Below are positions 976 through 37,284 of a stretch of 42,868 nucleotides of DNA, piece by piece. Both the position numbers and the translations under genes were made by a program. This DNA comes from Bacteroidota bacterium. Its GTDB lineage: Bacteria; Bacteroidota; Rhodothermia; Rhodothermales; UBA10348. Positions within the stretch are counted from its first letter, which is position 1. Each line of letters begins with the position of its first letter. Under the pieces are notes generated by a model. That model had not been told where the DNA came from, ran no database searches, and saw nothing but the letters and a program-made list of their open reading frames with translations. The stretch lies in contig JACZYD010000009.1 of the NCBI GenBank assembly GCA_022571255.1, positions 1 to 42,868 on the forward strand, written 5' to 3'.

Positions 976-2340
976 TTATTTTGAGCCCTTGAATCGCTTC
1001 GGGTCAGCAATATTCTTGGCGACTTCGGCATCGAATCTGTGGATCAAAGCCTGTATCGCACTTTGGTGTGTTTTAAGAAGGTTGTCGTTTGATCGGCCCC
1101 GACGAGCCAGGATCGGATCTATCAGATCTGCCTGCAATACGATGACAAGCTCTTTCTGGGTTTTCTGTTTCTGTTCGCGTCCGAATATATAGCGCAGACC
1201 AAAGAACCATCCCGGTAAGTCCTTCAATATCGGAATGCCGGTGCGCGACACTGATTCATCCGTGGAATAAAGACCGCCGATGATCGTCTGCTCTCCCGGA
1301 AGAAGAAGAACCTGTGTCGAGGCCGTACTCCTGTCAATAATCAGCCCCGCCGGGGACGGACGACTGCCGGATTTCTCGACCTTTATGCTGAGATGAATGA
1401 ATTCTACTACAGGCGCGCCCAGCGTATCGTTCACAGCCTCAGAAATCAACGTCGGCGTTACGTCGATGATAATTCCTGTTTTAAAGAACTGGGTTACCGC
1501 ATTCCCTGCAAAATCCCGAACCTGAACGGGTACGTCTGAGCCGATCTGGATACTTCCTTCGACGCCGCTCTGAACCGTAATGTTTGGCGTGGCAATCGCC
1601 TCGCCTGCTCCATTAACCTCTGCAAAGCGGAAAAACTGGTTTACGTCCGAGAAACTGATCGTTTTCGGGAGTATTAACGGAGAGGTATCACCAAACGCAT
1701 CTTTGGTGTCCAACTGGATATCGAGGTTTGCGCCTCCGCTTGAACCGCCACCGCCGCCACCACCACCACCGCCGCCACCACCACCGCCGCCAACAATAAC
1801 GCTCCAATCGATGCCAATATCTTTCGATACGGTGTGATTGATTTCGAACAGAATGGCATTGATACGAATCTGACGTGTAAACAGATTTGCCGGAGCAACC
1901 GGTACAGTTGTTCTCGCTCCACCCGCAGTGTTGGCCGCCTCATCACTGTCCAGAATCAGCCCATCTGCCCGTTTGGGCTCGATCATGAAATATCTTTCCG
2001 TTTCACGATAAATAAGCTTGTTGTAATTCAGAACCTGTTCCAGTGCATCGAGAAAATGCATCCCTGAAATGCCAATGCCGATAGGGTGAGTCCGGGATTC
2101 GGGGTCAATAACCGTTTTTGCCGTAACCCGATTGAATATCGGATTCACAAAATCCAGAAAACGGTCAAACGGAGTCGACGGAAGAAACGAAACCAACTGT
2201 TCCGGTGGAATATAGGCTCGGATCTGTCGACCAAGGGCCGGATCCTGTGCGTTGGCCGAGCCTGGCATCCCACCCCAGAGTCCTGCGAGCAGGAGCATGC
2301 CGGGTACAAGCCGTTTGTAATTCATGTACATGATTCTCAT
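976..2340 (-). CDS. Secretin-type outer-membrane channel (GspD/PilQ/MshL family)
   Basis: 454 aa, short for a secretin. A signal peptide covers about residues 1-31 (LLLAGLWGGMPGSANA). An N-terminal domain follows (about 35-125), with a secretin/TonB short N-terminal-like stretch ending YFMIEPKR. The secretin core includes QIRINAILFEI and the late signature RTGIPILKDLPGWFFGLRYI, then KELVIVLQADLID. This matches the small MshL-like secretins of type IV pili and type II systems, which form the ring through which a pilus or substrate leaves. It is the last gene of a minus-strand set with the PilO/P-, PilM/N- and PilT-like genes. Residues 184-199 are 16 consecutive glycines, unusual inside a secretin core. 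Confidence 0.85.
   Translation of the reverse strand: MRIMYMNYKRLVPGMLLLAGLWGGMPGSANAQDPALGRQIRAYIPPEQLVSFLPSTPFDRFLDFVNPIFNRVTAKTVIDPESRTHPIGIGISGMHFLDALEQVLNYNKLIYRETERYFMIEPKRADGLILDSDEAANTAGGARTTVPVAPANLFTRQIRINAILFEINHTVSKDIGIDWSVIVGGGGGGGGGGGGGGGGSSGGANLDIQLDTKDAFGDTSPLILPKTISFSDVNQFFRFAEVNGAGEAIATPNITVQSGVEGSIQIGSDVPVQVRDFAGNAVTQFFKTGIIIDVTPTLISEAVNDTLGAPVVEFIHLSIKVEKSGSRPSPAGLIIDRSTASTQVLLLPGEQTIIGGLYSTDESVSRTGIPILKDLPGWFFGLRYIFGREQKQKTQKELVIVLQADLIDPILARRGRSNDNLLKTHQSAIQALIHRFDAEVAKNIADPKRFKGSK
1744..1791 (-). repeat. Gly16-coding triplet tract in the secretin
   Basis: Sixteen consecutive GGT/GGC codons (seen on the plus strand as acc/gcc triplets) encode Gly16 between the strand ending DWSVIVG and SSGGANLD. 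The mixed synonymous codons show it is not a simple unbroken microsatellite. Length variation would stay in frame. Confidence 0.9.
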
Positions 2341-2365
2341 GATGTTTTAGCCTTCGAATGTTCGG

Positions 2366-3370
2366 TCAGTATGGATTTGCCGGCATCAGGCGAGAGGCTC
2401 CAACTGCATGACGGTATCGGTCTCCGGTATCGAGATAAAATTCAACGTCATCAATGATACCTCCTTTGTTCAGACGAGCCCGGACAAAGCCGAGTCGAGG
2501 GTCGATCTCTGTGATGGTGCCGAGATAGATTTCATCTCCGCGCTCAACAGTTGCAAAATTCCCACCCCCAATATCGAATACCGCCTGGGCACCCACGATT
2601 GAAACAAGAACAGCCTTATCAACATCCATCAGGTCGTTCGTATTCGGCGGAATTTTATCCATGATCAGAGGCAAAAACGGGTTTTCCGCAAGCTGTCGGG
2701 GCGGCAATATTCCGGGCGGGACCTGCGAGATGTCACGCATGGGCAGTGGAACGTTCAAACCGGATCCATCAAGTTCCATATCTACTACGTCGGACGCGCT
2801 CAGCCCTTCGGCTCCACCGTAATAGGCATCCAATTGAAACCTGAAATTGACCATTACCTGGAGCTTCTCCCGGGACGTTTCCCGATCCGTTGTAATAAGA
2901 TCGAAATGATCCAGTTCGAGGTTCGCGATGCGATAGAATTGCCTGTTGTTTTCAATGCTCCATATGAGGTTATACAGCGCACGCATTTTCCCGCGTCCAG
3001 AAATCCGGAATACATACTTGCTGAACGATTCACTCTGAATATGATCTGAAAACGCAATATTGAATGGCTGAAACCCGGTCTTTGTGGTTTTATTCAAAAA
3101 AGAAATGACCGATTCGGAAACAAGAATCTGAGGTATTTCTTTGTACCGGGATTTCCACTTGCGCTCGATCTGTTCGGCCTGCTCCTGGGACTGAGCCGCA
3201 GAGGCTATCAGACTTGTCAGTTCAACCTGTTTGCTCTTGGCAACCTGTTCGGCTCTCTCCAGCCGTTCTTTCTCCCCCGGCTGCTCAAAAAACGTCACAT
3301 ACACACCTCCTCCGATGACAAGGGTGACACAGAATCCAATAACCAGGAGATTTTGATAGAGGTTTACCAT
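2366..3370 (-). CDS. PilO/PilP-like inner-membrane pilus alignment protein (fusion)
   Basis: 334 aa. One transmembrane helix at about residues 8-28 (LLVIGFCVTLVIGGGVYVTF) is followed by a charged coiled coil (about 32-72) and an alpha/beta domain to about 190 of PilO/GspM type. The C-terminal part (about 245-320: VLVSIVGAQAVFDIGGG, VERGDEIYLGTITEID) resembles the PilP/GspC beta domain, which docks on the secretin. In other bacteria PilO and PilP are separate genes, so this looks like a fusion. The gene lies 25 bp upstream of the secretin gene and 38 bp downstream of the PilM/N-like gene, the usual pilMNOPQ order. Assignment rests on topology, context and weak sequence resemblance. Confidence 0.65.
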   Translation of the reverse strand: MVNLYQNLLVIGFCVTLVIGGGVYVTFFEQPGEKERLERAEQVAKSKQVELTSLIASAAQSQEQAEQIERKWKSRYKEIPQILVSESVISFLNKTTKTGFQPFNIAFSDHIQSESFSKYVFRISGRGKMRALYNLIWSIENNRQFYRIANLELDHFDLITTDRETSREKLQVMVNFRFQLDAYYGGAEGLSASDVVDMELDGSGLNVPLPMRDISQVPPGILPPRQLAENPFLPLIMDKIPPNTNDLMDVDKAVLVSIVGAQAVFDIGGGNFATVERGDEIYLGTITEIDPRLGFVRARLNKGGIIDDVEFYLDTGDRYRHAVGASRLMPANPY

Positions 3371-3408
3371 TGCTTAGGGCGCTGCGTGCGCGGGCGGATT
3401 GTCTGAAT

Positions 3409-5214
3409 TCAGTCTGAAGAGTTCGTAACTGGTATGTCCAGTTCTACATTGTCTCGGAAATATCGGGCCACGTTGGGTAACTCCAGCGGTGTTCTCATAT
3501 GCATCGTAAAGGTGTACACTTGAAATCCTCGGATGTCAGAAAATTCGAGTGTTTCGATAGTCGCGTTTGCCTGTGTAGCAAAAGAAACCACGCTGATACG
3601 GTCCGTTGCAGTTCCGGAAAGCTTCAGACCATCTCCATCTTCACGCCAGGTTTCTATCCAGATTCCCTGTACTTCAGCCGTTATGGCGGCCGTCGTTGAA
3701 AGTGCACGACTCCATCGATCACTTCCAATAAGGAGTGAATCGAGAATGTCGAGAGCGCCCACATAGCCTGTTGTCTTTCGCTGTAGACTGTCGATTTTTG
3801 TCTGCAGGTCCGAAGCGTTCAACATGATCAATTCTTCCGGATACTGAGCTAACTCGTATTTATACAACTCGATCTCGTGCTTCTGGGAATAGAATCGATA
3901 CATGAAAAACAGCGACGTGACAAAAAGCAGCACGTACATCGCGGCAAGTGGCCAGGCGAAAGGCAACTTGAACTGTGCCCGAACAAGCTTTCTTGGCAGG
4001 AAATTGATTTTGAGAAATTTATCCTTTGCTGCAGAGTCGCTGATGACCCTGAGCGTTACGGCAGCGGCGAGTACAGCGTCGCCCCGTACAATATTGCCAT
4101 CGTCTGAACGTAATTCAGGCAAGTAATCACGTAGAAGCTCAACGCGCGTGTCCGGGAAAAATGTTCTGAAGCTATCAGCGAGAGATTCTTCTCGTTCTTC
4201 TCCAAGCAGAACTACCGTACCGGCATCCCCGAGTCCGAATTCATCCTGCAAGAGTAATACGCGACTGCATATTGTCTCCGGTGGATCGAATGCGGTTATC
4301 GAGCGAAGGCTTTCGAAACGAACCAGTTTGTCGCCGTCGAGAAACATGACGATGGTGTCTTCGGTACCTGCCCTTACGAGGAGCGTGGGACCGTGCTCTG
4401 TATCGCTGTTCCCAAGTTCGGCCGATCGATTTTGCGCGGCCTTTGCCAGACCCAGAAAGAGCGTGATTTCCGTATCCAGCAGATCGATTCCCGGGAGAGT
4501 ACGTTTGCGATCACGGATGGTCTGAAGTGTCGGCTCAACAGGCTCGTTCTTGGTTGCAAATACGGCGAGCGCCTTCAGAATTTCCGGATCATCAGATTTC
4601 ATCGGAAGAAAGACTACTTTCCCTGGATCAAACTCACCGTCATGTTTCTCCGCGAAAGCCCCTTCAATGGAGTTTTTTCCGGGCTTTCCATTTCCGAAGT
4701 TCAGCACACCCGGTTTTTTCTCTCCGCTCTCCGTACGTGAGCGACGTCGGCCATGAACTCTGACCTTTATTTCCGAGGTCCTCAGGAATCCTGTACCTAT
4801 GGCAAAAGAAATCCGGAAGTTTTCGAACCCCGCATCCTGGCATTCCGAAATTATGTCCAGTAATTCCAGGTCAAATTTTGTCGTGGCCTGAAAAGACGAG
4901 GCTGGAGTTCCACCACCATCACCACGAGCGTCAAATGAGCCCCGCGAATCCATCTGTCCGAACTCACCGGCCAGAAATAACGAACCGCCCGCATCCGATT
5001 CCCCTCCCACATTGAACGTTATATCCGTCGAACCGGATTCATTCATCTCCGGGGTAACGGGCGCATAGAATTGCGATCCGGATTCGCCTATCGTTCTGTG
5101 AAATTGTCGAACGATGACAGGACCCGAGTCGGTGTCCTGGACGAGCACGGCATGTACGTCGCGAGACGTAGCGGTTACTCCAAGGATATATTCTTCTATT
5201 GCGTAGCGCTTCAT
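3409..5214 (-). CDS. PilM/PilN-like fusion protein of the pilus assembly platform
   Basis: 601 aa. The first roughly 400 residues look like the actin-fold PilM/GspL cytoplasmic domain (YILGVTATSRDVHAVLV at the start, a divergent nucleotide-binding fold later). The segment INFLPRKL then leads into one transmembrane helix (about 418-441, AAMYVLLFVTSLFFMYRF), a coiled coil and a periplasmic ferredoxin-like domain (about 500-575, TAEVQGIWIETWRED). NFLP followed by a membrane helix is the standard PilN start, so PilM and PilN seem joined in one chain. The family links the cytoplasmic motor to the PilO/P and secretin parts. A variable insert between about 45 and 95 is Gly/Ser-rich. Confidence 0.7.
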   Translation of the reverse strand: MKRYAIEEYILGVTATSRDVHAVLVQDTDSGPVIVRQFHRTIGESGSQFYAPVTPEMNESGSTDITFNVGGESDAGGSLFLAGEFGQMDSRGSFDARGDGGGTPASSFQATTKFDLELLDIISECQDAGFENFRISFAIGTGFLRTSEIKVRVHGRRRSRTESGEKKPGVLNFGNGKPGKNSIEGAFAEKHDGEFDPGKVVFLPMKSDDPEILKALAVFATKNEPVEPTLQTIRDRKRTLPGIDLLDTEITLFLGLAKAAQNRSAELGNSDTEHGPTLLVRAGTEDTIVMFLDGDKLVRFESLRSITAFDPPETICSRVLLLQDEFGLGDAGTVVLLGEEREESLADSFRTFFPDTRVELLRDYLPELRSDDGNIVRGDAVLAAAVTLRVISDSAAKDKFLKINFLPRKLVRAQFKLPFAWPLAAMYVLLFVTSLFFMYRFYSQKHEIELYKYELAQYPEELIMLNASDLQTKIDSLQRKTTGYVGALDILDSLLIGSDRWSRALSTTAAITAEVQGIWIETWREDGDGLKLSGTATDRISVVSFATQANATIETLEFSDIRGFQVYTFTMHMRTPLELPNVARYFRDNVELDIPVTNSSD

Positions 5215-5237
5215 GAAAACGTTAACTCTGATATTGC

Positions 5238-6707
5238 CTAATTGACAAGCTGCGAGAATCGACGCTTGTTGTTTGAATAATTCCGGGCTGTCTCATGTGT
5301 TATCATACCCTGACGGTAAAGCTTAAATAATTCCTGCTCGAGGGTGATTTGACCTTGCGCCCATCCCTCCCACATCATCTGGTAAATCTCATTTGAATGG
5401 TTATTTTTTATGGCCGCGCGGGCACTGGAAGTCATCCATAACACTTCTTTTGCCAGAATTCGGCCGCCGCCGACCCGAGGACACAGTTTCTGGGACACGA
5501 TGCACCGCAAGACGTCTGCCAGGCGGCTGCGAACGCGATTCTGTTCTCCCGGAGGATATTCAGCGATAATTCTGTCGATACTTTCCACGGCTGATGAGGT
5601 ATGGAGCGTTGAGAATACCTTGTGGCCAGAGTCCGTAATTTCGAGACTGGCCGAAATTGTCTCCGGGTCACGCATCTCACCAATCACCACGATGTCAGGA
5701 TCCTGGCGAAGTGCCTGGACAATGCCATCTTTAAAACTCGGTACGTCACGCCCGACTTCCCTGTGGCGCACTATACACTTCTTGGAATCATGCAGATACT
5801 CGATCGGACTGCCGACGATCACGATGTGTCCGTTGAAGTCCTTGTTATTGGCATCAATGATGGCATCCATGGTCGTTGATTTACCAGAACCTGTAACGCC
5901 CGTAATCAAGGTCAGTCCATCGCGAACATAGCGAAACATCAACCCACGCTGGATACTCGGGTGGAACGCCAACTCATCGATACCTCGAAGCTCCTGGGCG
6001 ATGGCTCTCATGTTGAGAGCGATGTATTCCATATCCAGGTATGCCGATGCGCGAAATCTCTGCGGACGATCCTGCCCTTCCTTCTTCACGGAATAAGAAA
6101 AATCGGCCGCCCGCCATTCTATCAGTTTCTTTCTCCCGGGAGCATCAAGAAGATTCAGTATGAGAACGTTTGCCTCGTCCGGTGAATAACGTCCTACCGA
6201 TCCGTCCGGACTTTTATTTCCGTCAATTCTGTACCAGACATGGCCGTTGGATGACGTTCCTCCAAGATCTATATCGCTGGCATTGATTTCGGGCATTCTG
6301 CGAATAAGCGAATCCATATGAACGGTCAATGCAGCCCGATCCCGACCATCCAGCCTTGCAAGTTGCTCCATCTGATGCAGAATCCGGCTGTTCCCCGTCA
6401 GAGAACGCGGAGTATGCGCGGCAATTTCTTTCACGACCCTGGGCAGAGGCGATACGGACGGAGCTACAGATGCGCGAATTTCCGATGCACCCGAATCTCC
6501 AGGAGAAGGCCCTCCAACTTTGGCTGCCGGTGGTCTTTCTCCGGCCGGAATTCCAGGCTTCCTCGCGTCCTGCGTTCGCGAGGAAAGCGTCCGAGCTGGT
6601 TCGGCGTCACTCTTTGGGGCAGTATGCCCATTCGTCTCGCCGGAAGCTGGCCGACGCCTGGGCGGACCATGAACTGAATGAGGTGAATCTGGGGTCTGCT
6701 CGCTCAT
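5238..6707 (-). CDS. PilT/PilU-like secretion ATPase
   Basis: 489 aa from the ATG at 6707; an upstream frame extension looks non-coding. Residues 1-90 are Pro/Ser/Arg-rich and probably disordered. The PilT-type N-terminal domain follows (ASDIDLGG, WYRIDGNKS), then Walker A GVTGSGKST (270-278), Walker B DPDIVVIGEMRDPET (336-350) and the His box STLHTSSAVESIDRI (about 366-380). The family is the hexameric motor that retracts or powers type IV pili. The Asp box reads IVIVGSPIEYLH where PilT usually has IEDPIE, so the acidic pair is replaced by Gly-Ser. No platform protein (PilC) or prepilin peptidase is encoded in the window. It starts the set ATPase, PilM/N, PilO/P, secretin. Confidence 0.88.
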   Translation of the reverse strand: MSEQTPDSPHSVHGPPRRRPASGETNGHTAPKSDAEPARTLSSRTQDARKPGIPAGERPPAAKVGGPSPGDSGASEIRASVAPSVSPLPRVVKEIAAHTPRSLTGNSRILHQMEQLARLDGRDRAALTVHMDSLIRRMPEINASDIDLGGTSSNGHVWYRIDGNKSPDGSVGRYSPDEANVLILNLLDAPGRKKLIEWRAADFSYSVKKEGQDRPQRFRASAYLDMEYIALNMRAIAQELRGIDELAFHPSIQRGLMFRYVRDGLTLITGVTGSGKSTTMDAIIDANNKDFNGHIVIVGSPIEYLHDSKKCIVRHREVGRDVPSFKDGIVQALRQDPDIVVIGEMRDPETISASLEITDSGHKVFSTLHTSSAVESIDRIIAEYPPGEQNRVRSRLADVLRCIVSQKLCPRVGGGRILAKEVLWMTSSARAAIKNNHSNEIYQMMWEGWAQGQITLEQELFKLYRQGMITHETARNYSNNKRRFSQLVN

Positions 6708-6811
6708 TGTAAAGATTTTCAGATTTTGGTGGCCCGCACGCCCGTTCCGGATCATGTGCCCGGATACTGGAATCGGGGGCTCCTATTCCAAGATCGTATC
6801 GGCCATGCACC

Positions 6812-6868
6812 CCACTACTTAAACGCGATAACGAAGACCCCGCTACTGGAACAGGATAACGGCTCGAA
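6812..6868. repeat. Degenerate 28-bp direct repeat, 2 copies
   Basis: Two diverged copies share CCCACTACT / CCCGCTACT, then a purine-rich middle, then GATAACG. They lie about 100 bp upstream of the ATPase start on the minus strand. Weaker than the other arrays in the window. Confidence 0.4.
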
Positions 6869-6902
6869 GGCAGTCAGATCAACCGAATTCCGTGTACCAT
6901 GA

Positions 6903-6933
6903 AGGGCAGCGACCATGAATGATTCGCTGCCCT
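6903..6933. other. 10-bp inverted repeat, possible regulatory hairpin
   Basis: AGGGCAGCGA and TCGCTGCCCT are perfectly complementary across an 11-base loop. No T-rich tail follows on either strand, so this is not a standard intrinsic terminator. It lies in the leader or promoter region of the ATPase gene. Confidence 0.5.
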
Positions 6934-7010
6934 CAATGATGCATGATTATCAGCGAACAGAGCGTCCTGATACTCGAGCGCATTGGAGAATCGTATGCCG
7001 GAATAGCGAT

Positions 7011-7032
7011 AAAATCAAAGGCCGAATCGGCC
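7011..7032 (-). terminator. Intrinsic terminator after the pilin-like gene pair
   Basis: On the minus strand GGCCG-ATT-CGGCC is followed directly by TTTGATTTT, starting 10 bases after the stop codon at 7042. A GC-rich stem with a T-rich tail is the classic pattern. It would separate the pilin-like genes from the downstream ATPase unit. Confidence 0.6.
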
Positions 7033-7041
7033 GACAAGGGC

Positions 7042-7605
7042 TCAGAGATTGACGGGGAGCAGTGTCATTCCCCAAAAGGTGCGACCCAGGTACATGTTGT
7101 CGATGTCTCCAATCGGATACATATTCACCACCTGCGCACGAACCATAACGGCCGATGCGAACCCCGTTACATTGCCGCTTGCGTCCAGTGGCTCTACCCT
7201 GAAATCTTGGAGCGTAGATGGACTGCCTCCTTCCAGAACTCCGTTTACGTATCGGTCCACTCGGTACCTCGGTACGGGATCTCCATTCACCGTAACGGTA
7301 TCGACGGTAACAAGCTGGTACTGCACTTCGAAATCAGTAACTCCGTCGTTCCACCAGAAAGTGAAATTCGTGGTCTGCCCGTCACCATTTGTTGTGACAT
7401 TTGTGATTTTCTGTGCCGTACTGGTTCCGATCAACTTGATTTCCTGCTCCAGTAAATCTGCAAACTCCAGGGTCTGCTTCTTGGAAACGTAGGCGATCGT
7501 CATCTCGGCTGTGGACTGCATCGAGCGCAGTTGCAGGGTCGCAATTGCAGTGGCAACGGCGGTGAATACCAGAATCGCTGATATGTTGTCAAGAATGAGC
7601 TGCAT
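7042..7605 (-). CDS. Pilin-like membrane-anchored protein, minor pseudopilin type
   Basis: 187 aa. An N-terminal hydrophobic helix (about 4-27, AILVFTAVATAIATLQL) is followed by an amphipathic helix and a beta-rich C-terminal domain (DFEVQYQLVTVDTV, RVDRYVNGVLEGGSPST, LQDFRVEPLDASG). The wording of the C-terminal half resembles PilW-like minor pilins, where a phrase like GGSP..LQDF is common. The usual prepilin peptidase site (Gly-Phe/Met-x3-Glu) is absent; the helix starts almost at the N-terminus. It lies 3 bp after the next pilin-like gene and upstream of the ATPase set, supporting a role in the same machine. No specific function can be assigned. Confidence 0.6.
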   Translation of the reverse strand: MQLILDNISAILVFTAVATAIATLQLRSMQSTAEMTIAYVSKKQTLEFADLLEQEIKLIGTSTAQKITNVTTNGDGQTTNFTFWWNDGVTDFEVQYQLVTVDTVTVNGDPVPRYRVDRYVNGVLEGGSPSTLQDFRVEPLDASGNVTGFASAVMVRAQVVNMYPIGDIDNMYLGRTFWGMTLLPVNL

Positions 7606-7608
7606 GGA

Positions 7609-7998
7609 CTATTCAGCAAAAATGCGTGCGTGAGTGACCAGAGCAACTGCAAACCTGGTATTGGATGAGGTAAGCGCGACTTCTTTGTATGCGGTTGGTG
7701 TGGCGGAGGGAGTACCGTCAGCGTTTACATATTGAACGGCCGTTTCCATCGAAAACGGAACGGAAAACGCGCCTACGGTATAGCTGACCGAAGTCGAGTC
7801 ACCATCCAACTCATCCAGATCATCCCAGTCGGTTCCCTGACCGATGATTTCCATTGCTTCGATCGTCGCAGCATTGGCCATGATCTCATATTCGCTCCGG
7901 ATCATATTGTCGTGCGTGCGCTGCTGCCCCTCAAAATAATTCAAGGAAGAAACTGTAATCATCATCAGGGCAAGAAAGGCAAGCATTGTCTGTGGCAT
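7609..7998 (-). CDS. Small pilin-like membrane protein
   Basis: 129 aa. Residues 3-20 form a hydrophobic helix (QTMLAFLALMMITVSSL), followed by NYFEGQQRTHDN, an amphipathic helix rich in Ala and Met, and a small beta-rich domain. This is the architecture of a pseudopilin that lacks the standard leader and Glu5. It is separated by 3 bp from the second pilin-like gene and lies 52 bp downstream of the subtilase stop, so the three may share a transcript. An in-frame TGA lies 9 bases before the ATG at 7998, so the protein cannot extend upstream to gain a leader. The function is inferred from context only. Confidence 0.55.
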   Translation of the reverse strand: MPQTMLAFLALMMITVSSLNYFEGQQRTHDNMIRSEYEIMANAATIEAMEIIGQGTDWDDLDELDGDSTSVSYTVGAFSVPFSMETAVQYVNADGTPSATPTAYKEVALTSSNTRFAVALVTHARIFAE

Positions 7999-8050: not shown

Positions 8051-9355
8051 TCAATCATTGCTCACGTCCAGAAGCGCATTTGTCGTGCCGCTCGGCACAG
8101 ATCGTGTGCGCTTGCTCGCATCTTCGTTCAACGCCCTCGCTGTCTGCGGTGCGCTCGCATTCGGATGACGGGCCAGATAAAGTGCTGCTGCTCCACTGAC
8201 GTGGGCTGCAGACATGGAGGTACCAGACATCAGGTCAACACCAAACCGATCCGGCGATGTGGAAATCACGTTCTGACCTGGCGCAAGAATATCCAAGCCG
8301 CTTCCAAAGTTGGAGAACCAGGAAAACTTTCGCTTCTCATCTACGCTGCCTACAGTAATTACCCCCGGAACATGGGCCGGAGAAATGGTCGCCACATCGT
8401 GACCTTCATTACCCGCTGACACTACAACCGTAATTCCAGAGTCGATCACTTTTTGAACGGCCTCGTCGAGCAGAGTATATCCGTCTGTCTCCACATCTTC
8501 GCCGAGACTCAGATTGACGACCGCTGGGAGTTCCGGATTATTTGACTTCCAAACAAGAACGTGTTCCAGAGCCTGGATCACTATTCCATCGTCTGTGGTA
8601 CCGTTAGAACCGAATACTTTAAGATTGTGGATTCGAGCACCAGGCGCTAATCCGACAATTCCTCGATCATCGTCATATGCACCGATGATCCCTGCAATAT
8701 GAGTACCATGACCGTCACTGTCCGAAGCGCCTGGATCCGAACCTGAGAAATCCACATTTTCAATCACGTTGAGATCAGAGGAACTTACTCCGGTGTCGAT
8801 CACAAAAACATCAACGTCTACGGTACCTTCTCCATCGCCGGAATGTGCCCAACTTTCGGTCCCGCCAACCATTTCTATGCTCCAGGGTACCGTATCGTAT
8901 TTTTTAGACCGCTTTCTTTTTCCAATCGGCCCGTTCATATTGAATGCTGTCTCGATCCACTGAATATCAGGGTCGCTTTCCATAAGCGCCAGCATTTCTT
9001 CGAGATGACCACTTGCGGCCCAGATCGCAAAACCTGCGAACACTTCAGAATATTCGTATCGGTCGACAATTTTGTAACGATCGACAATTTTGTAGCGATC
9101 AACGATTTTGTAACGATCGACGATTTTATTCGGTTGGATGGAAAAGACAATACCTGTGTAATTTTCACCCTTTGAGATCATTTGTGCAGCCTTGTTCAGG
9201 AGTTGTGGATTTCTGAACTTCCCGCTGCGAATCACATCTTTTTCAGAATCAGGGTTCGAATCGAACACCTGATCGACACAACCCGTCCCTGTCATCGCGA
9301 CTGCAATGAGGAAAACGGCGCTGAAGGAGAGACGAGCTGCATTATGCTTTGTCAT
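8051..9355 (-). CDS. Exported S8 family (subtilisin-like) serine protease lipoprotein
   Basis: 434 aa from the ATG at 9355. A lipoprotein signal peptide ends at a Cys (AVAMTGTGC, Cys26). An I9-like propeptide spans about 40-140. The catalytic triad is visible: Asp187 in FVIDTG, His216 in DGHGTH, Ser380 in SGTSMSA, with the oxyanion Asn316 in SAGNEG. Length and motifs fit proteinase K/subtilisin-type endopeptidases, so this is a surface or periplasmic protein-degrading enzyme. Residues 77-101 hold four tandem KIVDRY units where the family usually has a single beta strand of the propeptide. The longer frame reaching 9436 adds a hydrophilic stretch before the signal peptide and is rejected. Confidence 0.9.
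   Translation of the reverse strand: MTKHNAARLSFSAVFLIAVAMTGTGCVDQVFDSNPDSEKDVIRSGKFRNPQLLNKAAQMISKGENYTGIVFSIQPNKIVDRYKIVDRYKIVDRYKIVDRYEYSEVFAGFAIWAASGHLEEMLALMESDPDIQWIETAFNMNGPIGKRKRSKKYDTVPWSIEMVGGTESWAHSGDGEGTVDVDVFVIDTGVSSSDLNVIENVDFSGSDPGASDSDGHGTHIAGIIGAYDDDRGIVGLAPGARIHNLKVFGSNGTTDDGIVIQALEHVLVWKSNNPELPAVVNLSLGEDVETDGYTLLDEAVQKVIDSGITVVVSAGNEGHDVATISPAHVPGVITVGSVDEKRKFSWFSNFGSGLDILAPGQNVISTSPDRFGVDLMSGTSMSAAHVSGAAALYLARHPNASAPQTARALNEDASKRTRSVPSGTTNALLDVSND
9060..9131 (-). repeat. 18-bp in-frame tandem repeat (KIVDRY x4)
   Basis: Four 18-bp copies at 9060-9077, 9078-9095, 9096-9113 and 9114-9131 differ by only a few bases. Each encodes Lys-Ile-Val-Asp-Arg-Tyr in the protease propeptide. 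Copy number can change without breaking the frame. Confidence 0.92.
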
Positions 9356-15520: not shown

Positions 15521-17598
15521 TTATGCCCTGCTCCCGCGGGCCGTTCTGAATAACCAAAAACAGAACAGAGCAAACCCGATGATACCCAGAATGTTTGCCA
15601 CGGCCTCGAACCCTTCGGGTGCAAGGGCCAGCACATCGGTACTCTGACTCGCCGCAAAAGGAATCGCCAACAGAATTCCCACCAGTGCTTCCCCCGTAAT
15701 CAATCCGGAAGCAAACAGCAGTCCGCGGGTCTGCCCTTTCTTTGTTTCTTCATCAACACGTTCCGGGGCGACACTCCATTTCGCGGCAATCGATCGTCCC
15801 ACGGCCCATGAGATTACGCCACCTACAAAAATCGGTACGGATAATTCGATCGGGAGATAAATACCCACGGCTACAGCCAGAACGGGCGCCCGAAATGTAC
15901 TTTTTCGCGATTCCAGATATTTATCAATCGCAATAATCAGAACGGCGATACCCACCCCCGTCCAGATCATTTCCCAAGGCAGGTTACGCGTGAATACGCC
16001 CTTTGCAACCGAACTCATGAGCGTAGCCTGGGGCGCTTTCAATGCCTCGGAAACGTCCATGCCGGCCCGTGGGAATACATCTCCCATTCCGTAAGCGGAA
16101 AACAAAAGCTGGAGCACCGGAGCAATGACAAGAGCGGCTGCCACGACACCGACTATCTGCATGATCTGCTGCTTCGCGGGCGTTGCGCCGACCAGTTGTC
16201 CGGCCTTCAGGTCCTGCAGGTTATCGCCTGCAAGCGCTGCCGCACACGCCACAACGGCGCCGACAAGAATCGCGGTTGCCGCTGCCGCTGTTGCCTGATC
16301 CGAATCAACAGCAAAATTTATCTGCCCTCCGAGAAACGCCAGAAGAATGAGTGATATTGTAAGAATCGTTGCAATCGTTACGCCCGATATCGGATTGTTT
16401 GAGGATCCTACAAGCCCGGCCATATATCCGGCAACGGATGAAAAACGAACCCGGCGATGAGCGAAAACAGAACGGAAAACGCGATAATCCCTGCGTATTG
16501 TCCCCCGGAAACAAGAAGCGCATCCTGATCGATCACAGCCAGAAAAACGATCAGAATGGGCACACTCATCGCGAGTGTGCCGATCAGAACTATATTTATC
16601 GGAGTGTCCCGCTCCGTTCTCGGAATGGTATCACCTTCTCCGGATCGGATTTTTCTCATGGCTTCCATCGATGACGTGAAACCATCTCTGATGGGTTTAC
16701 CGAGTGATAACAGGGCGTATATGCCGCCCGCAGCCATAGCCCCGACGCCCAGGTATCGAATTCGCGCACTCCATATTTCTTCGGCGGCGGTGTAACCGGA
16801 CGCCCCGTCGGTAATGGCCAGAATCTCGGCCGGATCAGCAAAAGCCGTGAAAAGCGGAATACCGATGAACCATGAAATTACTCCACCGGCAAATACAAGT
16901 ATTGCAATGTTGAGGCCTACAATGAAGCCAACACCAAGGAGGGCAACACCCAGATCGGATCCTATTCCAAAAAGAGCTCCGCCGACAGTAAAAGACCCTC
17001 CTGTCTTTGCGGCAATCAGTTTCAATCCGGTCTGGCCCAGTTTCAACAGCGCTCCTGCAATTCCCGCCATACCGATTATACGAGCCCCTTCGCCTCCTTT
17101 CTCCCCTGCTTTCAGTACTTCTGCCGTAGCGACTCCTTCGGGAAACTGAAGCTTGGCCTCCACAATCAAAGCCCTCCGCAGCGGGATCGTGAACAGAACT
17201 CCCAGAATACCTCCGGCCGCTGCGATGGCGAAGGTCGGAAGAAACTTGAACTCCGTCCAATACTGCAGCATGATCAGCGCGGGAAGCGTAAAGATCACGC
17301 CCGCCGAGAGTGCCTCACCCGCCGATGCTGAAGTCTGAACAATATTGTTCTCAAGAATGTTGTGTTCCCGGAACGCTCGAAGAAGTGCCATGGAGATCAC
17401 CGCCGCCGGAATGGACGCCGATACGGTCATACCCACCTTCAGTCCCAGGTATGCGTTGGCTCCGGCAAGAACAGCGGAAAGGACAAACCCGAGAATCACG
17501 GCTTTTAACGTGATTTCGGGCAGGCTTTGCGATGCCGGAATATACGGAACAACTTCTTGAGCGACCTCTCTGGAATCGAATTCAGAATGGTGACTCAT
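15521..17598 (-). pseudogene. OPT family oligopeptide transporter, split by a one-base frameshift
   Basis: Two overlapping frames (17598-16408 and 16423-15521) together give one OPT transporter of about 690 aa with many membrane helices. The first frame covers PEITLKAVILGFVLSAVLAGANAYLG through SVLFSLIAGFVF and then turns to a short wrong tail ending at a stop. The second resumes VAGYMAGLVGSSNNPIS, the conserved OPT motif. Adding one T to the T5 run at 16441-16445 (minus strand) restores a continuous FVFSSVAGYMAGLVG. The family imports oligopeptides or metal chelates by proton symport. It follows the LamG/T9SS gene by about 45 bp. A homopolymer error in the assembly is as likely as a real mutation. 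Confidence 0.85.
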
Positions 17599-24712: not shown

Positions 24713-26911
24713 TTATTGCCGGATGAATTCAATATGGACCAGGCGAGCATCTTCGTTGCGCGCATTCCACGCCGTGCCGTATTCCAGTAGATACATGGAT
24801 CCGTCAGGCGCAAAAATCATGTCGATCGGCCGCGCCAGCGTTGTACCCGGAAGGAAAGACTCCATATATCGATAGGACCCGTTGTCGTCCATGCTTACGA
24901 CCTTGATGAAGTGGCGCATCCACTCATAAATGAACAATTTCCCATGGTAGTAGGGTGGGAATGCACCCCGGTTCTCGGAGGATACAGCTCGTGGCACTGG
25001 CGAAGCGCCGTAATAAACGGGCCCGGCCATCGCCGTTCGGCCACCATCACCCAACATCGGGAATTCGACCGAGGTATCGTAGGGATACCAGATAAACGCA
25101 GGCTGCGCGGCAGGAAGAGCCCGCGTACCCCGGTTGTTGGGGGAGTTGTTCTGCGGGGCAGCCGCTTGAAACGCGGGACCGGACGTGGATGTTGAAAAAT
25201 TGTAGTCGTAGTACGCTTTGTTGTCGCCCACGAAATAAGGCCATCCGTAAAACCCTGCCCCGGTCGCCCTGTTGATTTCGTCGTGACCTCTGGGTCCTCT
25301 TCCCGTCGAGTCACGAGCAGCATCAGGGCCTACTTCACCCCAGTAAAGGGTGCTTGTTTTTTGATCAATAGAGATTCGAAACGGATTTCGATTTCCCATG
25401 ATATAAATTTCGGGGCGGCCATCTTGCGTATCGGCAGCGCCAATACCGCCATGCGGCCCTTTCGCAACTCCGCCGCCGCCATCCGGCGTATCGGCAGCGC
25501 CAATACCGCCATGCGGCTCATCCGAGTCTCCGACACCGCCATGCGGGAACAGGTTTCCTTTGGGAATGCTGTATGAACCGTCGGCCTCCGGCTTGATTCT
25601 CAGGATTTTTCCCCTCAGGTCCTGCGAATTGGCGGCAGTGCGCTGAGCATCCCACTGCGATCGACCAGTGCGCTCGTCGATGGGTGTGAATCCGTCCGAT
25701 GCGAACGGGTTGGTATCGTCGCCGACGGACAGGTATAACAATCCGTTCGGACCAAATTCTACCGATCCACCGCTGTGACAACACTCGAGACGTTGATTCT
25801 GAACCATGAGAATAACCTGCTCGGTGTCCAGATCCAGAAAGTCGCCCTCGAACTGGAAGCGGGATAGATATTGGACCTCGGCGTCGATGTCGGGCGAGTA
25901 ATAAAGATAAATCCAGGAATCAGAGGCAAAGTCAGGATCCACAGCGAGGCCGAGAAGGCCATTTTCAAGTTCTGAAAATACATCCAGGGAGGCGGCTATC
26001 GTGCTTTGCCCGGTTTTCGGATCGAAAAGCCTTACGTCGCCTCGTCGTTCGGCATATAAGATCCGTCCGTCAGGTAGAATATCCAGCTCCATCGGCTCAT
26101 TCAGATTTTCCTCCAGGGTTGTAAATCGGAATTCGTCTGCGTTGGGCACCACACCTTCCAGCGTATAGTCGAGCCCCTCCACCTCGCCCACGGCCCAGGA
26201 AATGCCGCCCCAGACATGGGCGAGGAAAAGAGGGTCGGCGTAAGATTCCTCCGTGTGACCGAGTTCCGTATAAAATGCACGCCCACCGTCAAATTCATGG
26301 TACCAGGCCACAGGATGAGGCTCGGGGTCGCCTTCTTTTCCCGTATTGTACGTGGATTCGTCGATCGACAAGACCACATGAATATCGTCGTTGACGTACC
26401 GGATATTGTACCATTCGTCACTCCGGATCCAATCCGCTGGAAGGGACTTTGTCGATGGATGATCCGCGTCTTCGACGTGCAGCGTGGCCTCCTGGATGGC
26501 CGGATGGCTTACGAAATATCCCCCGACGAGCTGCCCGTACCACGGCCAGTCGTATTCTGTGTCTGACGCCGCGTGAATACCAACATACCCTCCGCCCGCC
26601 TCGATAAAGCGCTGCATGGCAATCTGTTCGAATTCATCCAGTACGTCGAGTGTAGTGTTCAAGAAGATGATCGCGTGGTAGGATGATAAGACCTCGTCCC
26701 GGAACAGCCGGTTGTCCGTCGTGGTGTCGGCTTCGAATCCCTTCTCTGAGGCAAGTTTGAGAAGAGCCGTCTGGCCTGCGGCAATGGCGCTGTGATGATA
26801 TCCAGTTGTTTTACTGAATATCAGAATGCGAGGGGTCGGCCGCCTGCTATTAATCAGGATTACCGCAAGCACGAGAGCTGTAAATAACACGGCTGAAACA
26901 AACTTTTTCAT
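24713..26911 (-). CDS. ThuA-domain / PQQ-type sugar dehydrogenase fusion, exported
   Basis: 732 aa. A signal anchor or signal peptide (KKFVSAVLFTALVLAVILIN) is followed by a ThuA trehalose-utilisation/glutamine-amidotransferase-like domain (about 27-235: RILIFSKTTGYHHSAI, FIEAGGGYVGIHAASDTEY, WYHEFDGGRAFYTELGHTEE). The C-terminal 480 residues are a beta-propeller glucose/sorbosone dehydrogenase-like domain (LPDGRILYAERRGDVRLFDP, LLGLAVDPDF, YIMGNRNPFRISID). Such fusions are common in Bacteroidota and act on extracellular sugars. A Gly-rich loop at about 452-497 carries 20-residue repeats and lengthens the usual turn between GNLFP and RPEIY. No obvious Shine-Dalgarno. Confidence 0.87.
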   Translation of the reverse strand: MKKFVSAVLFTALVLAVILINSRRPTPRILIFSKTTGYHHSAIAAGQTALLKLASEKGFEADTTTDNRLFRDEVLSSYHAIIFLNTTLDVLDEFEQIAMQRFIEAGGGYVGIHAASDTEYDWPWYGQLVGGYFVSHPAIQEATLHVEDADHPSTKSLPADWIRSDEWYNIRYVNDDIHVVLSIDESTYNTGKEGDPEPHPVAWYHEFDGGRAFYTELGHTEESYADPLFLAHVWGGISWAVGEVEGLDYTLEGVVPNADEFRFTTLEENLNEPMELDILPDGRILYAERRGDVRLFDPKTGQSTIAASLDVFSELENGLLGLAVDPDFASDSWIYLYYSPDIDAEVQYLSRFQFEGDFLDLDTEQVILMVQNQRLECCHSGGSVEFGPNGLLYLSVGDDTNPFASDGFTPIDERTGRSQWDAQRTAANSQDLRGKILRIKPEADGSYSIPKGNLFPHGGVGDSDEPHGGIGAADTPDGGGGVAKGPHGGIGAADTQDGRPEIYIMGNRNPFRISIDQKTSTLYWGEVGPDAARDSTGRGPRGHDEINRATGAGFYGWPYFVGDNKAYYDYNFSTSTSGPAFQAAAPQNNSPNNRGTRALPAAQPAFIWYPYDTSVEFPMLGDGGRTAMAGPVYYGASPVPRAVSSENRGAFPPYYHGKLFIYEWMRHFIKVVSMDDNGSYRYMESFLPGTTLARPIDMIFAPDGSMYLLEYGTAWNARNEDARLVHIEFIRQ
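25417..25560 (-). repeat. 60-bp in-frame repeat in the dehydrogenase loop, about 2.5 copies
   Basis: A segment including GCGTATCGGCAGCGCCAATA begins at 25426 and again at 25486, a period of exactly 60 bp (20 residues, PHGGIGAADTPDG then a Gly/Val spacer). A third, diverged part follows toward 25560. The number of copies is a multiple of three bases and keeps the frame. Confidence 0.85.
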
Positions 26912-32367: not shown

Positions 32368-32928
32368 TCAGAATGCCGGCGGGCGAGCCTCTCCGGAGTC
32401 GAGAAAACGTGACTCAAGATCCGGCGTTGGTACCATGCATGTATCGCGTCGGCCAAACCATCGGTAACGGTTGCGGGCAACGAGGCGGTACACCGCGTCT
32501 CGGATCGGTCGCGGTACTGCCATGAACACTCCGAGCAACGCATATGGAAACCCCATCTGCCGGGCGATTCGAATGGCTGCCGCCGAGCGGATGTAGATCC
32601 TGCCTGCATCGAGAAGCACGATGGAGTCTGGAAGCGCTTCGATTGTCACACCTTCGTCCGCGCTCCGGAGTTCGCGCCTGGCGGCTTCCGACTGCAGCGA
32701 AGCGAAGAGGAATCTGCCCTGCGTGTCGCGTTCGATGACCCACTGCACGGCAGCGTTACACAGATTGCAGACGCCATCGAAGAGGATAATCGGGTGGGAA
32801 TCATGGGAACTGGATTCCATGGGTGAAACCGCTTTGCTGGATCCGGATTCGACGGGTGAAACCGCTTTACTGGATCCGGATGCGATGGGTGACACCGCTT
32901 TGCTCGTATCAGTTTCGTTGTCGACCAT
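32368..32928 (-). CDS. DCC family thiol-disulfide oxidoreductase with N-terminal repeat
   Basis: 186 aa from the ATG at 32928; a TTG start at 32964 is rejected. The DCC motif ILFDGVCNLCNAAVQWV gives the family its name (Asp, Cys-x2-Cys). It continues FLFASLQSEAARRELR and ends GRRDTCMVP. The catalytic thioredoxin-like domain begins only at about residue 45. Residues about 8-40 are three 11-residue units (SKAVSPIASGS type) that precede it and are not part of known family members that I recall. Function is disulfide exchange in the cytoplasm or at the membrane. Ends 2 bases from the convergent AhpD-like gene. Confidence 0.85.
   Translation of the reverse strand: MVDNETDTSKAVSPIASGSSKAVSPVESGSSKAVSPMESSSHDSHPIILFDGVCNLCNAAVQWVIERDTQGRFLFASLQSEAARRELRSADEGVTIEALPDSIVLLDAGRIYIRSAAAIRIARQMGFPYALLGVFMAVPRPIRDAVYRLVARNRYRWFGRRDTCMVPTPDLESRFLDSGEARPPAF
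32811..32907 (-). repeat. 33-bp in-frame repeat at the DCC N-terminus
   Basis: Two complete 33-bp copies (32821-32853, 32854-32886) are flanked by partial copies. They encode SKAVSPxxSGS units right after the start codon. The period is a multiple of three. Confidence 0.88.
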
Positions 32929-33116
32929 CTTGTATATATAGTAACATGTTGTGCAGCAATTCAATTAACCGTCAACGCGTAACGGCAATTTACTCTCCAT
33001 ATTTACGGAAATGAAATCGGATCCTCCGTGATTCTATCTTTACCAATTGTGCTTTCCCACGGTGGCACCGATCTTTTGCTACGTAAATCCATGAAAATAT
33101 CAGTGGGCCGCATGCC

Positions 33117-34567: not shown

Positions 34568-34788
34568 CTCATTATCGATTACGTTTCAACGTGCGTCGAT
34601 CCAACCCGAAACGATCTTCGAGTCCAGCGGACACAGTAAGGAACAATTCGCTCGATCGCACCGGAAGAAGTCTGATTTCTGTATTATTTTTGTGCCGAAC
34701 AGGCCATAAATTCAGGGTTTCCCTGCTTGATAGGAAGTGTACTCGTGCGTATGATCACAGTGTTTCTGAACCTATGATCACCATGTAC

Positions 34789-34793
34789 GGAGG
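34789..34793 (+). promoter_or_regulatory. Strong ribosome-binding site for the radical SAM gene
   Basis: GGAGG followed by a 6-base spacer before the ATG at 34800. It is one of the strongest Shine-Dalgarno sites in the window. Confidence 0.75.
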
Positions 34794-34799
34794 CAAGCA

Positions 34800-35669
34800 A
34801 TGCTGATGGCGAGTCGAACGAGGGCGTACTGGCAGCTCCTGGCGGCGGAGATCCAGAATCGCGCACCTGTTATCAAGATCAAGATTAACGGTCTGTGTAC
34901 AAATCGGTGCGTATTCTGCCCGTTTCACAGTGATCCGGAAAAGCTGGAAGTGAAAGACCTGACGCGATTCTTCGATATGATTGAGAATCCGAAATACCGC
35001 AGGATCGATATCAACGGTGGCGAGCCCACACTTCATCCACGCTTTCTGGAGATTTGTACGTTTCTGAAGGATCGATTCAAAGGCCGTGTCGCACTTCATC
35101 TGGGAACCAATCTGATTCCCATTGCACGAAATGACGCACGTTGGTCCAGGATCCGCGAAGAGGTATTCAGCACTTTCGATATGATCTCGGTAGGCTGTGA
35201 TGATGAACACAAGAATATTCAGCACTTGGAAGAATTCGCTCCAATCATCGTGGGTAAAGGCATCCGGCTGTCTGTAAATGTGATGACTGCTTACTGCAGC
35301 CAAGATATCAAGGATCGGATAATTGCGCTGAAAAAGGCGGTCGGTTTTCGCGTCAGCTACTCCGATGTACACCACTATTACGAGGATCGTCCCGTCGTCA
35401 ATGAGGCCATGATTCCGTGTCGTCGACAGGTTCACGAATTGATGCTGAACTGCAACGGGGAGGGTTTTTTCTGTTTCCATCAGGAATTCGAGGAACCCGT
35501 TTTCAATCTGCACACGGTTGAAAAGGATGCGTTGAACTATTTTCTTTCGGAATACGTGCCCGATCCGTATCGATTCTGCGGTGTTTGCACGCTCTACAAG
35601 CCGAAACGCGGGCTGGCTTTTCGGGCTCGTATCCAGCGTGGACTGTCGAGGATCGGCGCCTCGGCGTAG
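34800..35669 (+). CDS. Radical SAM protein with extra C-terminal cysteines
   Basis: 289 aa. The [4Fe-4S]-SAM motif is CTNRCVFC (Cx3Cx2C) at about residues 38-45, followed by the glycine-rich INGGEPTLHPRFLEI. The rest has the partial TIM barrel. The C-terminal third carries five more cysteines (IPCRR, LNCNG, FFCFHQ, RFCGVC), a layout like a SPASM or twitch auxiliary-cluster domain. Such enzymes modify peptides or other substrates. No peptide precursor is seen nearby. The start at 34800 is supported by a strong GGAGG. Upstream neighbour (minus) is the GT4 gene; downstream is repeat array D. Confidence 0.88.
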   Translation: MLMASRTRAYWQLLAAEIQNRAPVIKIKINGLCTNRCVFCPFHSDPEKLEVKDLTRFFDMIENPKYRRIDINGGEPTLHPRFLEICTFLKDRFKGRVALHLGTNLIPIARNDARWSRIREEVFSTFDMISVGCDDEHKNIQHLEEFAPIIVGKGIRLSVNVMTAYCSQDIKDRIIALKKAVGFRVSYSDVHHYYEDRPVVNEAMIPCRRQVHELMLNCNGEGFFCFHQEFEEPVFNLHTVEKDALNYFLSEYVPDPYRFCGVCTLYKPKRGLAFRARIQRGLSRIGASA

Positions 35670-35672
35670 ACT

Positions 35673-35799
35673 GGTGTCTCGGGGTCGCGCCATAGCCCGG
35701 TGTCTCGGGGTCGCGCCATAGCCCGGTGTATCGGGGTCGCGCCATAGCCCGGTGTCTCGGGGTCGCGCCATAGCCCGGTGTATCGGGGTCGCATAGCCC
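35673..35799. repeat. 26-bp tandem repeat, 5 copies (array D)
   Basis: Copies begin at 35673, 35699, 35725, 35751 and 35777; the last lacks three bases. Each reads GGTGT[C/A]TCGGGGTCGCGCC... and ends ATAGCCC. The array lies between the radical SAM stop and the M20 peptidase start, ending about 54 bp before that ATG. Long minus-strand frames that run across it are translations of the repeat. Confidence 0.94.
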
Positions 35800-35853
35800 A
35801 CTCGCATCACTATCTTGGCTTTTCTTTTTTGAATTCTGAACACTCAGGTGAAA

Positions 35854-37284
35854 ATGCGACACGGATCCCTCTTTCTTGCTTGCTCTGTCACTCTGTTGCT
35901 CGTCTCCGGCCCGGCCGACGCGCAGGATTCCAGTACCGACTACACGGAGCCTTACCAGCAGAAGGCGCTGGAAATATTCCGCACATCCATAAGTTATCGA
36001 ACCGCAGAAGGCCACGGCCAGGTACCTGAATTGGCTGCCTATCTGGCGAATCAATTTCGCTCCGGTGGTTTTCCTGAAGAGGATATCCACGTTCTCCCGC
36101 TTATTCTGGAGAGCGGCGAGGAGACGGCAAGTCTTGTCGTTCGATACCGCGGAGATGGCTCCTCGGGCAAGAAGCCCATCTTGCTTGTGGCACACATGGA
36201 TGTGGTTAATGCCCTGCCACAGGACTGGGATCGAGATCCGTTTACACTCGTCGAAGAGAACGGCTTTTTTTTCGGCCGGGGCACGCTGGACGACAAAATG
36301 GGCGTCGTAATACTGACAACGACGTTTCTTCGCCTCAAGAAAGCAGCGTTTGTACCCACGCGAGACCTGATCATCGCCTTCACGGGTGACGAGGAGACCG
36401 GTATGATCACCGCGGACAGTCTGGTAACCGAACACCGCGAACTTACCGATGCAGAATTTGCATTGAACGCGGACGCGGGTGGTGGCGATTTAAGCGCCGA
36501 AGGAGATGCCGTCGCGTACACGATCCAGACGGCGGAAAAAACGTACGCTACGTTCGAGCTGACTATCCGAAACCCGGGCGGGCACAGCTCCGCGCCAAGG
36601 TCCGACAACGCCATTTACGAGTTGGCGACTGTGTTGAAAAACATGGAGTCCTACCGCTTTCCAGTTCGATTCAATGAAACCACGCAGCAGTACTTTGAGG
36701 CATACGGAGCATTGACAGAAGGAGAAATCGGGGAAGCAATGAGGCGTTTTGCCGCGAATCCAGACGATGAGGGTGCAACCGATGTGCTTGCCCGCCAACC
36801 ATGGACCGTGGGCATCACGCGCACCACGTGTATCGCAACGATGCTCAAGGCGGGGCACGCAGAGAACGCGCTGCCGCAATCCGCAACAGCGACCGTCAAT
36901 TGCCGCATTTTTCCGGGTGTTGACATCTCGGCGGTGCAGACAACCCTGATGCGGGTGGCGGAAAACAATGCACTGGAGATCAGTCTGCTGGGAAAACCAA
37001 CGTCCAGCCCGCCGTCACCGATACGAGAAGATGTAACAGAAGCGGTTACGGCGGCCGTCGAATCTCGCTTTCCTGGTACGAAGGTCATACCGTACATGGC
37101 GCCCTACGCCACCGATGGGAAGAAATTCCGTGCGGCAGGAATTCCGACCTATGGTGTATCGGGCTTGTTTATCCGTGAGGAAGATATATTTGCCCACGGT
37201 CTGAACGAGCGAGTTCCGGTGAGTTCGTTCTTCGGTTCGCTGGAGCATTGGTACATCCTTCTTACAGAGCTTTCAGGTCGCTGA
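35854..37284 (+). CDS. Exported M20 family zinc peptidase
   Basis: 476 aa from the ATG at 35854, preceded by an AGGTG three bases away; a GTG at 35848 would add two residues. A signal peptide (SLFLACSVTLLLVSGPADA) is followed by the M20 zinc motifs: LLVAHMDVVNA (His, Asp), GRGTLDDKMGV (Asp) and FTGDEETGM (Glu pair), and a late AHGLNERVP His. The inserted dimerisation-like domain (about 190-340) begins near AEKTYATFELTIRNPGGHSS. The family includes dipeptidases and aminoacylases. It fits the other secreted peptidases in the window. Repeat array D is directly upstream. Confidence 0.9.
   Translation: MRHGSLFLACSVTLLLVSGPADAQDSSTDYTEPYQQKALEIFRTSISYRTAEGHGQVPELAAYLANQFRSGGFPEEDIHVLPLILESGEETASLVVRYRGDGSSGKKPILLVAHMDVVNALPQDWDRDPFTLVEENGFFFGRGTLDDKMGVVILTTTFLRLKKAAFVPTRDLIIAFTGDEETGMITADSLVTEHRELTDAEFALNADAGGGDLSAEGDAVAYTIQTAEKTYATFELTIRNPGGHSSAPRSDNAIYELATVLKNMESYRFPVRFNETTQQYFEAYGALTEGEIGEAMRRFAANPDDEGATDVLARQPWTVGITRTTCIATMLKAGHAENALPQSATATVNCRIFPGVDISAVQTTLMRVAENNALEISLLGKPTSSPPSPIREDVTEAVTAAVESRFPGTKVIPYMAPYATDGKKFRAAGIPTYGVSGLFIREEDIFAHGLNERVPVSSFFGSLEHWYILLTELSGR

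Follow-up and report, generated by a model that had tools for sequence, protein, structure and literature searches.

The locus examined here raises the question of whether two pilin-like genes, a PilT-type ATPase, two fused alignment proteins and a secretin, with no PilB, PilC or prepilin peptidase gene beside them, form a device of their own or one part of a larger pilus machine, and how the pilins of such a machine could be assembled. The window, i.e., the whole stretch of DNA analyzed, comprises 42,868 nucleotides of contig JACZYD010000009.1 from a Bacteroidota bacterium of the class Rhodothermia (assembly GCA_022571255.1). The six open reading frames of the cluster were confirmed, all on the minus strand, with the same coordinates as in the first-pass annotation (Table 1). 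The type IV pilus-like gene order which that annotation had recognized was found again in the relatives, in dozens of species and well beyond chance.

Table 1. Features of the pilus-like cluster and its neighbor in the window.
Feature	Position	Strand	Length	Remarks
PilQ-like secretin	976..2340	(-)	454 aa	PF00263, E 6.5e-26
PilO-like domain and second, possibly PilP-like, C-terminal domain	2366..3370	(-)	334 aa	
PilM (actin-like) and PilN in one chain	3409..5214	(-)	601 aa	GspL layout
PilT-type ATPase	5238..6755	(-)	505 aa	N-terminal extension of about 140 aa
pin2, leaderless minor pilin-like protein	7042..7605	(-)		starts MQLILDNISAILV
pin1, leaderless minor pilin-like protein	7609..7998	(-)		starts MPQTMLAFLALMM
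Exported subtilase, apparent lipoprotein	8051..9352	(-)		PF00082, E 1.7e-43; just outside 976-7998

Short repeats were seen at several places in the window: a stretch of about 17 Gly residues within the secretin (around 1740-1800), four KIVDRY repeat units in the subtilase (around 9056-9127), and in-frame or adjacent repeats of the PHGG-, SKAVSP- and DTGLWRDP-type at 24713-26911, 32368-32964 and 34755-36435. At 15521-17598, what appears to be a single membrane transporter is divided over two overlapping minus-strand open reading frames (15521-16423 and 16408-17598), perhaps by a frameshift.

The PilMN and PilOP chains are almost invisible to single-sequence searches. A PilMN profile from 16 species matched solved PilN at residues of about 390-540 (E 1.2e-14), and the AlphaFold model of the chain (mean pLDDT 73) matched the PilM-PilN complex 2ych over residues 6-393 (Z 20.6, the PilM part) and PulL/GspL 5hl8 over residues 498-576 (Z 11.4). 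Profile match and fold matches taken together, PilM and PilN are therefore one chain with the layout of GspL, so that the fusion proposed in the first-pass annotation was borne out, also by the structure prediction it had named as a check. The second fusion, of PilO with PilP, held for its first part: the PilOP profile matched solved PilO over the N-terminal half (E 9.3e-5) and the Pfam PilO model matched three of the 16 members, so PilO is fused to a second domain. The C-terminal half, which is placed where PilP would be, gave no significant PilP match in profile searches and aligned weakly, though co-linearly, with HofP (E 0.16); its identity as PilP is not confirmed by profile. In comparisons with E. 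coli proteins, HofN showed weak agreement (E 0.0013), and HofM and HofO gave no match.

The ATPase of the cluster reached 309 bits (E 3.9e-92) against the PilT/PilU model TIGR01420, just missing the curated cut-off of 319, and is classified as PilT-like and not as PilB. The PilT family of this system carries a conserved segment, AIKNxNxxEIYQM, which appears to sit at the place of the known PilT motif AIRNLIRE. The absence of PilB, PilC and a peptidase near the cluster holds for the window, and a search of the rest of the genome (3.29 Mb, 99% complete), the check suggested for pilB, pilC and pilD, recovered the first two elsewhere and an A24 peptidase nowhere. The only T2SSF protein of the genome, PilC (PF00482, matched twice), is encoded on a second contig, C78, where it adjoins a 943-aa PilB (PF00437, E 1.4e-98) and a pilin gene, and the only secretin match of the genome is the secretin of the window. 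Most relatives have a one-piece operon in the order pilin(s)-pilC-pilB-(minor pilins)-pilT-pilMN-pilOP-pilQ. A compact operon of eight genes (e.g., L154) with no extra conserved gene is found in some genomes that do not belong to the class, and those members of the window's family that were examined have the two operon halves on separate contigs. By gene content, the window contains the half for retraction, alignment and outer-membrane passage, and C78 the assembly half with major pilin, pilC and pilB. A second, solitary PilB-like ATPase of 639 aa was seen on contig C68 (L008, 7446-9365) without other pil genes around it. The operons of relatives also contain a recurrent leaderless protein of 350-400 aa (MGKxILL...; L103, oriented positions 1518-2684; L079, 11765-12946), similar in size to GspK/PilX, of which no copy was seen in the window.

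We consider it likely that the window and C78 together encode a type IVa-like pilus machine that is independent of a prepilin peptidase, the assembly and function of which we infer. The main rival, which we regard as unlikely, is a device resembling type II secretion systems, in which the leaderless proteins would assemble into a short pseudopilus within the periplasm and drive exoproteins out by way of the secretin, and no retractile surface pilus would be made. In line with such a device, PilM and PilN are joined as in GspL, the GspF model scores the platform protein equally to the PilC models, and a protease gene lies beside the locus: the exported protease noted at first pass proved to be a subtilase, and its gene adjoins the pil genes in seven of the nine loci of the window's family (L100-L106). 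The subtilase is absent from the loci of other families and is apparently an accessory neighbor limited to the window's family. However, a PilT-type ATPase is present in every complete operon examined, the secretin scores better as PilQ (TIGR02515, 79.7 bits) than as GspD (63.7 bits), and neither GspO nor leader-bearing pseudopilins are found here. Type II systems are not known to contain PilT.

The type IVa-like reading turns on the pilins. Pin1 and pin2 matched no Pfam family; their hydrophobic N-terminal helices and the leaderless homologues at the same place in relatives agree with the description as pilin-like genes given at first pass. The most unusual point of these genes had been overlooked there, namely that the pilins have no leader peptide. 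An in-frame TAG lies two codons 5' of the start of pin2, and an in-frame TGA four codons 5' of that of pin1, with no start in between. The major pilin beside pilC reads MGQQQLLLLVLGIVIVGLAVVVGIQAF; it is preceded by an in-frame TAA seven codons 5', with no start between, and by a ribosome-binding-like GGAGG just 5' of the ATG. Major pilins start MGQQQLLL and have an in-frame stop 5', usually within 10 codons. No upstream in-frame ATG, GTG or TTG was present in 48 of the 51 pilins of the scanned loci (median stop distance four codons), and a scan of named genomes yielded 103 loci with real pilins, fourteen further loci being left out as chance matches, in which 127 of 132 pilins have no upstream start and the stop codon abuts the ATG in six. 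The MGQQQ invariance in the latter scan is imposed by the scan pattern; genes of the relatives' operons and the minor pilins were instead found by neighborhood or homology. In 36 of the 38 minor pilins that could be measured, those of the window among them, the start lies no more than about 8 residues before the helix. None of the three major pilins scanned scored above the cut-off of any Pfam or NCBIfam model. A leader concealed behind an alternative start further upstream is ruled out by the in-frame stops, and a start-calling artefact is argued against by the leader-bearing prepilins in canonical loci of the same class: six of nine such loci carry G-[FY]-[ST]-x-x-E prepilins, in genomes that mostly also have the leaderless system, and the canonical prepilins and peptidase are kept there for the added canonical system. 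Across 66 loci of the fused system, no canonical prepilin was found. As read from the DNA, neither the major nor the minor pilins possess a class III leader, and the helix follows their start within about 8 residues.

With pilins that lack a leader, the missing peptidase becomes meaningful. The A24 peptidase model PF01478 had no match in the genome, with a control search positive in 12 of 14 reference genomes. In a survey of 146 genomes of the class (T2SSF in 106, the PilMN chain in 98, A24 in 13), A24 was absent from 88 of the 98 genomes with PilMN, and the remaining ten also carry a second, canonical system. Among 395 genomes of the phylum (PilOP in 130, A24 in 51, both in 15), 115 of the 130 with PilOP are without A24; in one family that does not belong to the class, many members have A24 but PilOP is absent. 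A profile built from the A24 proteins of the class itself, searched up to E 1, found nothing in the genome or its family and gave no further convincing match, which speaks against a missed divergent A24 peptidase in this genome and family. The subtilase is an unlikely stand-in for the peptidase, as it lies beside the pil genes in no family other than that of the window.

For a major pilin of a close relative, the AlphaFold model (pLDDT 93) consists of one helix (residues 2-55) followed by a four-stranded sheet. Type IV pilins take all of the first 11 places among the structural matches of this model (Z 5.8-8.7, against Z 4.0 in the next row), and its residue 4 falls on residue 1 of PAK pilin and of FimA in their mature forms, its residue 3 on residue 1 of gonococcal pilin. 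The predicted structure of the major pilin is thus a type IV pilin fold in which the first residues take the position of the mature N-terminus. We give this match medium weight because plain Foldseek returned no significant pilin match for the major pilin; the gene context strengthens it.

It is likely that one branch of type IV pili, found in several phyla of the FCB group, does without class III signal peptide and prepilin peptidase, its pilins being made at mature length, losing at most Met1 to methionine aminopeptidase and being directly polymerized. We propose that the subunit has its mature length from translation on and that its N-terminus, after the action of deformylase and methionine aminopeptidase, would be a Gly, as Gly2 permits removal of Met1, with neither leader cleavage nor N-methylation. 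The pilin helix would enter the membrane N-in/C-out. PilMN and PilOP would hold the PilC platform, on which PilB would polymerize the subunits through the PilQ-like secretin, and PilT would depolymerize the filament. It is improbable that leader processing is still needed and that an unrecognized peptidase outside the A24 family cuts within the encoded N-terminus. Such a cut would fit the invariant Gly2, which resembles the Gly before the cut in ordinary prepilins, although the invariance is partly imposed by the scan pattern; but the longest possible leader would be MG, residue 3 or 4 of the model is already at mature residue 1, and the compact eight-gene operons offer no extra conserved gene. 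Moreover, removal of Met before Gly needs methionine aminopeptidase alone. An unconventional start codon is a minor possibility. The idea of the first-pass annotation that the cluster is a minimal device for secretion or motility, complete in itself, came from a window that alone has no PilB, no PilC and no peptidase; it can practically be dismissed, since the cluster is one half of a split operon whose pilB, pilC and major pilin are on C78, and since one-piece operons occur in many relatives and in other classes.

Nor is the system particular to one lineage, a possibility also raised at first pass: it spans Rhodothermia, Ignavibacteria, Kryptonia, Calditrichota/KSB1, Zixibacteria and others. 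Named carriers, in a set of mostly metagenome-assembled genomes, include Rhodothermus, Salinibacter altiplanensis, Fodinibius roseus, Balneola, Ignavibacterium, Melioribacter and Ca. Kryptonium, as well as Calditrichota, KSB1, Zixibacteria, Neomarinimicrobiota and Cloacimonadota. ComEC is present in 105 of the 106 T2SSF-positive genomes of the class as compared to 23 of the 40 without T2SSF, an association that fits DNA uptake and is confounded by kinship. In one family of the order (f7), nearly all sampled members are without both T2SSF and ComEC, as if the loss of pili and that of DNA uptake had gone together. The most likely use of the machine would be as retractile pili for DNA uptake and/or surface attachment.

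With type IVa pili the system shares the extension and retraction ATPases, the platform, PilM, PilN and PilO domains, a PilQ-like secretin, the pilin fold and minor pilins. Unlike them, it has no PilD, no leader on any pilin examined and no Glu5, and joins PilM with PilN and PilO with a second domain in one chain each. The T2SS-like cluster of Cytophaga hutchinsonii is likewise of the type IV filament type and comes from a related phylum, but it carries a Peptidase_A24 gene and recognizable pseudopilins (PMC5553014); some genomes of the class have a second system comparable to it beside the leaderless one. In Melioribacter roseus, pilT, pilQ, pilB and pilC were reported, pilA and pilD were not found, and the set was judged incomplete (PMC3534657). 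The MGQQQ operon is present in a genome assigned to M. roseus (L274), and leaderless pilin genes were not recognized in that report; leaderless pilins would explain its result.

In reviews, the class III signal peptide is the defining feature of a type IV pilin, peptidase processing precedes assembly and the peptidase belongs to the conserved core (PMC10191384; PMC4471445); a study of the superfamily likewise assigns it to the core of the ancestral system (PMC6668835). Here, extension ATPase, platform, pilin fold and PilT are present, whereas leader and A24 peptidase are absent, and we therefore file the system, known here from genes and predicted folds, as a variant working like a type IVa pilus rather than a standard member. 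Neither leaderless pilins nor peptidase-independent type IV pili were found described in the open literature searched, where the partial cases were a survey of Gram-positive pili and Nanohaloarchaeota clusters without an annotated peptidase. Pilin finders based on leader and PilD would miss this whole set of pili. If the proposed assembly is true, leader cleavage is not intrinsic to filament assembly, and the system allows the purposes of leader, cleavage, N-methylation and Glu5 to be tested cleanly.
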